Positions 16,813 through 21,006 of a stretch of DNA of 49,857 nucleotides are shown here, piece by piece. Source of the DNA: Ideonella sp. A 288 (GTDB lineage Bacteria > Pseudomonadota > Gammaproteobacteria > Burkholderiales > Burkholderiaceae_C). Position 1 is the stretch's first letter. Each line of letters begins with the position of its first letter. The stretch is taken from the NCBI RefSeq assembly GCF_002198735.1, contig NZ_MWLO01000132.1:1-49857 (forward strand), read 5' to 3'. A program made the position numbers and the translations under genes. The notes beneath the pieces are model-generated. The model was not told the DNA's origin. It saw only the letters and a program-made list of their open reading frames with translations, and did no database searches.

Positions 16813-18483
16813 TCAATCGGCGTCGCGCCGCCACACCGCGGCGAAGGCGCGCAGCTTGCCCCAGGCCGGGAGCTTCTCCTCGGACAGCGCATCGAGGAAG
16901 TCCGACAGGCGCTTGCTCTTGACCATGGTGTACACGGTGAGCGCCCCAGTGGCCACGAAGACCAGCGCGAACAGCGCCAGTCGCTGCGGCCACGGCGCGT
17001 CGGCCTCGGCCAGCAGGTTCATGCCGAGGAAGCCGGTGGTCACCGTGCCGATGAGGCCGAAGATCGTCACCACCGTCAACCGCACCACGGTGTTGGCCTG
17101 GCGGCGCAGGCTGTCGGCATCGAGGTAGGCGTTCATGTCGGCGATGCGTTCCTTGACCTCGCCGTACAGCGGGTCGAGTTCGAGGTGGTCGGCCGTCATG
17201 CGGAACAGCGCGCGGGCCTGCGCCTGCTCGGCCACCTCGTGGAACCAGTAGCGGTGGGTGAAGCGCAGGAAGCCCTCGAAGCTGGCGCGGATGCCGCGCT
17301 TGAAGCGCTTGACGGTGCTGGCATCGCGCACGTTCAATCGCTTCAGCGCCTCGACCAGCCGGTCGCTGAACATCAGCAGCGCCGCCTTCTGGAAGTGCGC
17401 GATCAGGAAGATCAGGAAATGCTCGTGGCGAAACTGCGCCAGCACGCCGCGCTCGGCGCAGCGGAAGAAATGCGCATCGGCACGGCCCACCACGACCATC
17501 GCGTGGCCGCAGCACAGGTAGCGCGTGTCGGGTGCAGATCCGCCAGGCGACCAGAAGCGGTCGAAGCAGTGGCGGGCCTCGAAGTCGGCCAGGTGCTGCT
17601 CGGCGTAGGGCAGGCCACTGCCGCCGCGGCCGCCGGTGACCAGCCCCAGGCGGACGAAATCGCTGCGCGACAACGCGCGCGGCTCGTCCAGCGCCAGGTA
17701 GGCCATCACAGGCATGCGGTGGTACTCGAGCTGCCGGTAACGAAGATGGTGAGCAGCATTGGTCGCGCTGCCCGGCGCCGCATGCTCGGCCCGCAGCGGC
17801 TCGAGCAACCAGGCCCAATGGGCGGCGATGCGCGGCGCGCGGTGCTCGGCCACATAGGCCAGGAAGGCCTCGCGGTCGTGTGCGTCCGAGCGCGCCAGCA
17901 CCGTGCCGTCGGCGGCCAGCCACTCGGCGCCAGCCAGGCAGTGCACGGGCTGGCCTTGCGCGTCCCAGCCCGGGGGGTAGCCCCGGCCGAAGCGGTAAAG
18001 CAGTTCCTGCGCCTGGTCCAGCCGCAGGTCGTCGGCCTCAACCTCGACGTTGAGCAGCACCACGTCGACATCGAAGAAGAAGTACAGGTCCACATGCACC
18101 ACGCGCAGCGTGATCGGCGCCTCGCCGACGCGGGTGACCACGCGCACCGCGGCCACGTCACGGCGGCGGAACACGCGCATCGGCGGACCACTGGCGTCGT
18201 CATCGGCGTGGCGGGCGGCACGCCCCTCGCCATAGAGGAAGCGCTGCACGTAGGGCAGGAAGGTGACGAACTCGTGGTAGTGCCGCTCGTGGAACTTGTC
18301 GGGGTCGCCGGTGTACTCGTCGACCTGTTCGCGCCAGGGCGAGGCCTCGCCCAGGTCGCGCAGCACGTGCCAGGGCGGGTGCCCGGCGCGGCCGGCCACG
18401 GGCATCACCCGCAGCGGCCACAGCAGCACCTGGCGCAGGTGACGGACCAGCGGGTTGGTGTCGATGGCTGGCGCGTCGGTCAT
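16813..18483 (-). CDS. CorA-like two-helix membrane protein with large N-terminal domain
   Basis: 556 aa. The C-terminus has CorA topology: helix VVRLTVVTIFGLIGTVTTGF (about 473-492), then the GMN signature in LGMNLL, a short acidic loop, a second helix (about 505-525) and a basic tail (MVKSKRLSDF). In CorA, Gly-Met-Asn forms the selectivity filter for Mg2+/Co2+. The upstream coiled region KERIADMNAYLDADSLRRQA resembles the CorA stalk helix. The N-terminal ~440 residues, however, are much longer than in classical CorA (~250), with aromatic motifs such as YHEFVTFLPYVQRFLYGEG and HVDLYFFFDVDVVL. Start chosen at 18483 rather than 12 codons upstream because the upstream stretch (including CLHC) looks non-coding; neither has a strong ribosome-binding site. 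One copy of the stem-loop element lies upstream, in a possible leader. Confidence 0.82.
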   Translation of the reverse strand: MTDAPAIDTNPLVRHLRQVLLWPLRVMPVAGRAGHPPWHVLRDLGEASPWREQVDEYTGDPDKFHERHYHEFVTFLPYVQRFLYGEGRAARHADDDASGPPMRVFRRRDVAAVRVVTRVGEAPITLRVVHVDLYFFFDVDVVLLNVEVEADDLRLDQAQELLYRFGRGYPPGWDAQGQPVHCLAGAEWLAADGTVLARSDAHDREAFLAYVAEHRAPRIAAHWAWLLEPLRAEHAAPGSATNAAHHLRYRQLEYHRMPVMAYLALDEPRALSRSDFVRLGLVTGGRGGSGLPYAEQHLADFEARHCFDRFWSPGGSAPDTRYLCCGHAMVVVGRADAHFFRCAERGVLAQFRHEHFLIFLIAHFQKAALLMFSDRLVEALKRLNVRDASTVKRFKRGIRASFEGFLRFTHRYWFHEVAEQAQARALFRMTADHLELDPLYGEVKERIADMNAYLDADSLRRQANTVVRLTVVTIFGLIGTVTTGFLGMNLLAEADAPWPQRLALFALVFVATGALTVYTMVKSKRLSDFLDALSEEKLPAWGKLRAFAAVWRRDAD

Positions 18484-18669
18484 GCGGCAGTGTAGGCAGG
18501 GCGACGAGCCATCCGACACGGGTCAAGCCCGCATCAGCGGTGCCTCGAGGTCCCGCCATGCAATTGCGGAGTCGCGCCATCGGCGCTCCTGGGCAGCGGA
18601 CTGGTTGGGGCGCTCGTAGCGGACGTTCCGAACGGCTGCTCAGAGCAAACCCCTTCGACGTGGGCGCGA

Positions 18670-18778
18670 GGCCGAGGCCACCGGGTGGCCGGCTGACTCC
18701 GTGTCCCCCGCCCGCGGACGAACGCGTCCGCGGGCTCCTCCTTTACCTGCGTCATCCGGCCACCCGGCGCCCTCGGCC
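18670..18778 (-). repeat. Stem-loop element, copy A (minus orientation)
   Basis: Read on the minus strand: outer stem of 8 bp (GGCCGAGG / CCTCGGCC), a 3x3 internal loop, then 12 bp (CCGGGTGGCCGG / CCGGCCACCCGG, 18681-18692 with 18756-18767) and a 4-bp TGAC/GTCA extension. Next comes an unpaired 5' strand CGCAGGTAAAGGAGGAG (18735-18751), an inner 10-bp hairpin (18711-18734, CGTT loop) and an unpaired 3' strand CGGGGGACACGGAG (18697-18710). Both unpaired strands are identical in copy B, whereas all stems differ. The element ends 187 nt before the CorA-like start codon, so it could lie in that gene's leader. Confidence 0.8.
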
Positions 18779-18849
18779 CGGATACAGCGGCGCACATCGA
18801 CGCGCCATCGTTCGCGTCGGCACCTCGGTGGTGTTGGAGCGCCGTGACG

Positions 18850-18934
18850 GGTTGCCCTGTTCTGCGCAGGTAAAGGAGGAGCCGCTGGCCCCGTTCGGCC
18901 AGCGGCGGGGGACACGGAGCAGAACAGGGCAGCC
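18850..18934 (+). repeat. Stem-loop element, copy B (plus orientation)
   Basis: Outer stem of 16 bp with one G-U (18850-18865 with 18919-18934; core TGCCCTGTTCTGC / GCAGAACAGGGCA), 5' loop strand CGCAGGTAAAGGAGGAG (18865-18881), inner 9-bp hairpin CCGCTGGCC / GGCCAGCGG (18882-18905, CCGTTC loop) and 3' loop strand CGGGGGACACGGAG (18906-18919). Same plan and same loop strands as copy A, opposite orientation, 71 bp between them. On the minus strand it lies about 105 nt past the end of the peptide-transporter operon. Confidence 0.8.
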
Positions 18935-19039
18935 AGGCGCGGCGCTCCCGCGCCACTCATCGAACGACGGCTGTTCAGCAGTGCAGCAACGGCCGCTGAG
19001 AGCCCAGAGCAGCGAGTCAGCGCGATCGACCCAGGTCGA

Positions 19040-21006
<1,967 letters not shown>

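Follow-up and report, generated by a model that had tools for sequence, protein, structure and literature searches.

The window, the whole stretch of 49,857 nucleotides analyzed here, comes from Ideonella sp. A 288, and two hairpin elements, A and B, occupy one of its intergenic gaps. The flanking genes, the longer repeat in which the pair lies, and the parts of each element are as follows.

16813–18483, minus strand: open reading frame (ORF) of 556 aa with no Pfam hit at 1e-5; the pair is upstream of its start codon
18603–19025 (approximate), no strand: longer dispersed repeat with the head-to-head pair; its ends are where other own-genome copies stop matching
18673–18775, minus strand: element A, whole, with 25-bp outer stem, internal loop, and inner hairpin (covariance model R1; fold z −6.4)
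18751–18775, minus strand: element A, outer stem 5′ arm
18735–18750, minus strand: element A, conserved loop strand 1, GCAGGTAAAGGAGGAG
18711–18734, minus strand: element A, inner hairpin, CCCGCGGACGCGTTCGTCCGCGGG
18698–18710, minus strand: element A, conserved loop strand 2, CGGGGGACACGGA
18673–18697, minus strand: element A, outer stem 3′ arm
18776–18840, no strand: 65-bp spacer between the facing 5′ ends of elements A and B
18841–18943, plus strand: element B, whole (covariance model R1; fold z −8.9)
18841–18865, plus strand: element B, outer stem 5′ arm
18866–18881, plus strand: element B, conserved loop strand 1, GCAGGTAAAGGAGGAG
18882–18905, plus strand: element B, inner hairpin, CCGCTGGCCCCGTTCGGCCAGCGG
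18906–18918, plus strand: element B, conserved loop strand 2, CGGGGGACACGGA
18919–18943, plus strand: element B, outer stem 3′ arm
19040–20035, minus strand: oligopeptide-type ABC transporter ATP-binding protein gene (PF00005 and PF08352); the pair lies downstream of its stop

An earlier note, made from the letters of this DNA, had described two hairpin copies on opposite strands, and these are real, with covariance-model borders at 18673–18775 (minus) and 18841–18943 (plus). Its coordinates for element A (18670–18778) were close to these borders, and those for element B (18850–18934) were short by 9 nt on each side. The 556-bp gap that it gave is correct when the left ORF is started from its internal ATG at 18483, and shrinks to 520 bp under the longest ORF call. 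Element A, whose sequence is in the training set of R1, scored 72.6 bits against the model (E = 1.1e-11), and element B, which lies outside that set, scored 71.7 bits (E = 1.7e-11). For the R1 search of the own genome, 150 of 7,747 first-look candidates were scored.

The loop strands of A and B, 16 and 13 nt long, are letter-for-letter identical (GCAGGTAAAGGAGGAG and CGGGGGACACGGA(G)), as had been noticed for the strings CGCAGGTAAAGGAGGAG and CGGGGGACACGGAG. A and B differ in sequence in their 25-bp outer stems and their 24-nt inner hairpins, yet each of these pairs, again as had been claimed. In the two window copies, the outer arms are complementary at 89% over 28 nt and 82% over 38 nt, and the inner arms at 100% over 11 and 10 bp. 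Both elements fold beyond dinucleotide shuffles (z −6.4 for A and −8.9 for B), with none of 200 shuffles matching either one, and RNAfold extended the pairing of element B to about 18827–18957.

A family with fixed loops and covarying stems

The two-strand loop pattern occurs four times in the own genome, against none for a reversed-pattern control. Among 149 relatives, the exact pattern was found in 14: 8 of 21 genomes of the own genus, this genome included, 6 of 69 from other genera of the host's family, and 0 of 59 from other families of the order Burkholderiales. A larger sample of the host's family had 31 carriers among 399 genomes, spread over 21 of 141 genera, with a low 1–13 exact copies per carrier genome. 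A named contig collection held at least 115 stretches with the pattern; the 80 matches listed with names included Rhodoferax, Hydrogenophaga, Aquabacterium, Comamonadaceae, Burkholderiaceae, Burkholderiales, and beta proteobacterium, and a few of the matches listed were labelled merely Proteobacteria, Pseudomonadota, or uncultured bacterium. One viral contig in IMG/VR bears the pattern. Searches by blastn with a single copy against plasmids and phages, and with the window pair against plasmids, gave no match beyond about one-third of the query, though copies with other stems would escape such a search. Because the main counts were built from exact matches to the loop pattern, they make the loops look more conserved than they are and leave out decayed copies; looser checks, with two mismatches per strand, covered the fetched loci and the Mpl sample described below. 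In the open-access literature, searched by loop strings, peptides, and topics, the family was not found: the 12-mer loop string matched papers that were unrelated by title and the start of the abstract, and the 14-mer loop string and the insert peptides gave no match.

Two groups of copies stood out within this distribution. In genome G012, 11 copies (on contigs C19, C52, C80, C126, C129, and others) share the identical inner hairpin CCGGCCGCAGGCCGG, and 5 of the 11 start no more than 110 bp from the first base of their contig, a pattern that suggests a recent burst of copies at which the assembly breaks. A cluster of 15 loci (L048, L067, L069, and others) includes many with a 9-nt inner form near one shared gene, which by eye we take to be an acyl-CoA carboxylase biotin carboxylase.

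Stem architecture was read from the 140 copies with enough flank among 147 distinct copies (152 loci, 170 instances). The outer stem is 25 bp long without bulges, each of the 25 positions being paired (Watson–Crick or G·U) in 83–100% of the 140 copies; at positions 26, 27, and 28, pairing stands at 69%, 64%, and 43%. Some genera pair for a few base pairs more, as in genome G419 with about 28–30 bp. In its commonest form the core unit is ~92 nt, comprising the 25-bp stem, GCAGGTAAAGGAGGAG, CGGGGGACACGGA, and a variable inner hairpin. When arms were dealt randomly among copies, Watson–Crick pairs became much rarer at most positions. In a covariation alignment of 66 rows (65 of the 140 copies, with a 13-nt inner hairpin, plus the window minus copy), both sides had changed at 28 of 30 base pairs, the covariation score was 0.583 against 0.177 in shuffles, and 95.3% of cells were paired, against 74.5% in shuffles and 35–48% with the partner slid by 1–3 columns. 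None of 500 shuffles reached the observed values, which confirms the compensatory stems that the earlier note had proposed. The arrangement it had named as speaking against its reading, conserved stems with variable loops, was not seen, a one-sided result since copies were mostly found via their loop strands; nor did the element appear only as part of a known IS or REP family without covariation. Fixed loops together with pairwise-rewritten stems suggest that a folded single strand is what matters.

Two other ideas about the structure were set aside. Arms copied from the host DNA at the target are disfavored by a stem consensus common to unlinked copies, and a G-quadruplex between the helices is not claimed, as RNAfold with quadruplex energies predicted one in only 7 of 60 random copies.

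The mismatches within the stems are uneven between the strands. On the loop-bearing strand, the 3,500 stem cells of the 140 copies contain 249 G·T, 40 A·C, and 138 other mismatches. Strand-symmetric mutation without selection would give equal numbers of G·T and A·C, so the 249:40 seen (binomial p = 5e-38 against equality, with copies that are not independent) indicates that one particular strand folds.

To follow the stems at orthologous sites, we used 222 copies from relaxed matching, which gave 199 copy pairs with alignable flanks on both sides, and counted changes for copies in which 20 or more of the 25 pairs form (189 comparisons, overlapping and not independent). These contained 716 compensated pair changes, 309 of transition type and 407 of transversion type, as well as 541 changes with G·U and 448 broken pairs (152 giving A·C and 296 other breaks). 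Orthologous copies keep their stems across species at flank identities of 70–99%, and sites with 90–92% flank identity have 19–23 of 25 stem pairs in common, which argues for old insertions whose stems changed in place. Copies at two sites, L250/L268 (flanks 96% identical) and L267/L270 (91.5%), differ through most of the inner hairpin. These changes outpace the flanks, so selection through G·U steps alone is insufficient, and arm-to-arm copying or exchange between copies may add to stem change. In a sample chosen through the Mpl protein rather than the loop pattern, 50 loci of 113 matched genomes were viewed and 40 Mpl loops were readable; the element was present in 5 of the 40, which is not a prevalence because the query protein itself bore the element. 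Four of these five copies kept the stem (among them L157, with changed loop strands) and L159 lacks one arm; L186, L314, and L318, with a loose match to one loop strand, were left out of this count.

Such changes could also come from a neutral DNA process that involves no structural selection, either replication template switching from one arm to the other (quasi-palindrome correction) or conversion among copies. Transversion-type double changes outnumber transition-type ones (407 versus 309 in the 189 non-independent comparisons) and need no G·U intermediate, inner stems were largely replaced between flanks that are 91–96% identical (L267/L270 and L250/L268), and Mpl copy L157 combines changed loop strands with a nearly intact stem, all of which fit this account. 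A neutral process is symmetric, however, and predicts G·T equal to A·C rather than 249:40; the conserved loops, the 25-bp length, and the pair geometry are also left unexplained by it. We therefore regard it as quite unlikely to be the whole cause, although neutral palindrome correction may act together with the explanation that we prefer below.

Paired units between genes and single copies within them

Neighboring copies were examined among 226 distinct elements in which 17 or more of the 25 stem pairs form. A neighbor within 300 bp was found for 88, a share that is not a frequency because regions around pairs were fetched on purpose. Of the 44 neighbor pairs, 43 face each other with their 5′ ends (head-to-head), one is tail-to-tail, and none is tandem; the head-to-head spacers are 16–72 bp in 39 of 43 and 102–129 bp in the other four. 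Pair units lie between genes. The dispersed units are 240–414 bp long and match at 90–96% between loci of one genome, with no match outside: 94% over 414 bp in G005, 95% over 367 bp in G012 (where one right end is a contig end), and 90–96% over 240–273 bp in the own genome, where the matches to the window cover 18603–18875 (contig C95), 18646–18885 and 18942–19005 (C70), and 18874–19025 (C32). Genomes G251 and G419 have several pair units each. Copy L235 of G012 is without element A and the spacer, its joints falling within 1–3 nt of the 25-bp borders, and between G419 and G289, from one genus, the same site holds a pair (L267) versus a single element (L270). At its two ends the longer unit carries similar but imperfect repeats, which vary from genus to genus; inspection by eye revealed no target-site duplication around it.

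Several own-genome loci may carry further rearrangements. On C70 (L217, about 742–744), element B is half deleted and the break holds N; since this may be an assembly fault, the break was not used as evidence of excision. At C95 (L218, ~731–1301) and C32 (L219, ~744–1067), an IS110-family transposase (PF02371, E = 2.6e-18, with a weak PF01548 match, E = 0.022, at the other end) appears to interrupt a further copy within its conserved loop strand, one contig having GCAGGTAAAG and the other AGGAGGAG, with an overlap of AG; the two contigs would be the two sides of one insertion. IS110 elements have a CT core and target REP or attC repeats.

The paired arrangement recalls REP/REPIN (BIME) sequences, which are likewise intergenic hairpins in inverted pairs with a short spacer and several copies per genome. 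An ordinary REP/REPIN family moved by RAYT (Y1 tyrosine transposase) would account for the head-to-head geometry, and 13 of 18 carrier genomes have a Y1 gene. However, Y1_Tnp was undetected (E up to 1e-5) in the other five, G000 (the own genome), G005, G012 (82% complete), G289, and G419, and of these G000 and G419 carry paired units. The element was also present in none of the 22 Y1 loci (~2.6–3.4 kb, allowing up to three mismatches per loop strand). Here it is the internal loop that is conserved and the stem that is free, rather than a conserved stem or foot tag, and by eye the stem foot bears no GTAG or CGTC, the tags in the title of PMC3733652. Copy number is low, and the extragenic location of REP/REPIN sequences does not hold for the 44 copies inside genes (13 of them the reference loci described below). 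Movement of an ordinary REPIN family by RAYT is, on this evidence, most improbable.

No mobilizing enzyme was found in the loci and genomes searched, and the Y1 family gave no link to the element. A candidate autonomous version at L124 has a 179-aa ORF between copies ~1.0 kb apart, which by eye is no recognizable transposase. A transposase shared near copies was sought among 51 clusters of ORFs of at least 110 aa (116 loci), and among these the 45 listed look by eye like host genes beside insertion sites common to several loci, not like a transposase. MITEs offer a further comparison, for which Coxiella QMITE1, ERIC, and the Correia/NEMIS repeats serve as examples: the family resembles them in being short and non-autonomous, with dispersed near-identical copies. 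It differs from them in that no parent transposon was found and the stem sequences are not conserved. The imperfect similar ends of the longer unit may be comparable to MITE ends, and no target duplication was recognized by eye.

Single copies also lie inside genes, in-frame and in both orientations. Pfam matches span or flank the insert in eight unrelated kinds of gene: Mpl, Tex, DnaE, an HrpA-like helicase with DUF3418, a molybdopterin oxidoreductase, an FtsX-type permease, MutL, and CobB. The insert is N-terminal to the Pfam-matched stretch in ThiG, BtuF-like, UvrD-like, and GNAT proteins and beyond it in photolyase-like and N6/N4-methylase proteins; only one side of the insert has a Pfam match in the methylase, photolyase, GNAT, and UvrD-like ORFs. 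For counting, 14 reference ORFs were picked among copies that a long open frame reads through, and 44 copies, including 13 reference loci, had both flanks matching one of these and fell in 13 of the 14 reference genes. None of the 44 has a neighbor within 350 bp, the apparent case L057 being two overlapping readings of one copy. Inner length, with the conserved C included, is 14 nt in 42 of the genic copies, 23 nt in one, and 10 nt in one. It agrees modulo 3 in 43 of 44, against 84 of 174 others (Fisher p = 6e-11), the 174–175 others including further genic copies; with the 13 reference loci left out, agreement is 30 of 31 (p = 6e-8). In the sole exception, the frame is restored by one additional A within loop strand 1.

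In Mpl, the insert covers residues 161–192, inside the Pfam match at 119–328. From NFGVSARLG to FVIEADEYD, the intervening loop measures 72 bp when empty (five genomes) versus 156–159 bp in most element-bearing loci, and the element is found there in either orientation. AlphaFold gave the element-bearing protein a mean pLDDT of 78.8 and a pTM of 0.75, with residues 161–186 below a pLDDT of 50 in an otherwise folded model; short stretches at 200–205 and 225–229 are equally low. The Mpl insert is thus predicted to be unstructured. Across genic copies, the insert peptides come from more than one reading frame and from either orientation of the element (QVKEEP..., AGKGGAR..., and APCPPPA...). In other genera, the same Mpl loop bears two different in-frame palindrome-like inserts (L158, L174, L179, L185, and L186; L163 and L169), with peptides like APSGGSEPHAVGSVGA and LPSGGAVPPWGGPAA, and the loop seems to be a hotspot for several palindrome families.

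This outcome resembles that of the Rickettsia palindromic elements (RPEs), which Ogata (2000/2002) reportedly described in-frame in protein-coding genes. In the text available from PMC10969869, which also has the QMITE1 and ERIC elements, RPEs are ~100–150-bp palindromes that occupy unrelated protein-coding genes without breaking the frame and occur outside genes as well. In-frame palindromic insertion into coding genes is found here as well (eight gene kinds; 43 of 44 congruent and the exception compensated). RPEs are described as coding for a conserved peptide, whereas the present inserts are read in various frames and both orientations. In the present family conservation is confined to the two loop strands, the stems vary freely and covary, head-to-head pairs occur, and the bacterial class is different; this separation rests on how RPEs are described. 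Because the RAYT link failed and the conserved-peptide feature of RPEs failed too, the family is assigned to neither REPIN nor RPE.

The folding strand and the nature of the elements

The genic copies allow the mismatch bias to be read against the orientation of the host gene. In the 27 sense copies of the 44, the ratio of G·T to A·C is 48:14, or 43:11 over 26 copies without L143, whose inner length of 10 placed it one base out of register in this tally. The 17 antisense copies give 36:5 and the remaining 175 copies 309:58. Dropping the reference loci leaves 19 sense copies at 39:13 and 12 antisense copies at 24:5. The sense and antisense ratios do not differ significantly (Fisher p = 0.21). 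As antisense copies keep the bias and the mRNA of their gene lacks the folding strand, host mRNA is not the obvious target, and an element acting in host mRNA is disfavored.

These data also bear on a structured RNA (a small RNA or cis element), in which the folded plus strand, for example a protein-binding site with several GGA motifs, would have its copies kept for function. Tolerance of G·U wobbles on one strand accords with an RNA, as do pair units between genes, stems kept across species at orthologous sites with flanks of 70–99% identity, and nearly invariant loop strands, though most copies were found by those strands. Against an RNA, 17 of 44 genic copies are antisense with the same bias (36:5), the element has no conserved promoter, its arms varying freely, and Rfam 15 gave no match above gathering score in the window, the best sub-threshold match at the locus being to a miRNA family (E = 0.088; 21.8 versus a cut-off of 150). 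We consider a structured RNA unlikely. The antisense bias and the lack of room for a conserved promoter in the arms lead us to favor single-stranded DNA (ssDNA) or a mobility step over host mRNA for the folding strand, and this is an inference.

The explanation we prefer, to which we give a probability a little under 60%, is a family of short, non-autonomous mobile palindromes in the host's own family of Burkholderiales, moved by a putative enzyme, that act as a folded single strand, with loops read by a trans-acting protein and stems that need only pair. The loop-bearing strand would act folded, most likely as ssDNA exposed in replication or transposition, and its purine-rich internal loop would be read by sequence by the trans-acting protein. 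Stems required for pairing alone would be free to drift with compensation. Two head-to-head hairpins, mostly 16–72 bp apart, would make up the dispersed intergenic unit, on a REPIN-like plan, and single genic hairpins would be tolerated when the frame is kept, probably yielding a disordered peptide insert, an outcome like that of RPEs. Integron attC sites, as generally described, share the structure-dependent single-stranded hairpins and the free stem sequence, and the present family differs from that description in its conserved internal-loop strands and insertions in genes. Three readings had been offered by the earlier note, namely a structured RNA, a protein-binding hairpin, and a non-autonomous mobile element that folds when single-stranded. 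The last fits best because of the dispersed copies, the rigid head-to-head pairs, the in-frame insertions in both orientations, and a bias that tracks the element and not host mRNA; an RNA is less likely, and protein binding to the loop strands is inferred. That interpretation as a whole is partly supported, and the family-wide 25-bp stem, the recurrent head-to-head unit in a longer repeat, and the in-frame genic copies elsewhere go beyond it.

Some observations count against mobile palindromes. Intact stems at orthologous sites are unexpected for merely dead mobile copies, and broken pairs are not rare (448 versus 716 compensated). The absence of a recognized target-site duplication, the imperfect, genus-specific terminal repeats, and the low copy number (1–13 exact copies per carrier genome) weigh in the same direction. 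The stem change at L250/L268, with flanks of 96% identity, is faster than would be expected from point mutation plus selection and does not follow from this explanation alone. A more specific proposal, an element class with a folded-ssDNA intermediate, recognition through the sequence of an internal loop flanked by two helices that evolve freely, handling by a novel enzyme, and arm-to-arm copying that renews the palindrome in place, is possible and on balance doubtful.

If such an arm-copying class exists, its element can live in-frame in housekeeping genes in either orientation. To our knowledge, known bacterial palindromic repeats are recognized via conserved stems or foot tags. Fixed loops with matched rewriting of the stems are the inverse of that rule, even in mpl, tex, hrpA-like, and dnaE genes and even antisense. 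The family predicts a reader of an internal loop, and its well over a hundred loci form a natural data set on whether palindromes are kept up by selection or by arm copying. Rickettsia-type protein-coding palindromes occur in Burkholderiales too, by an apparently different route.
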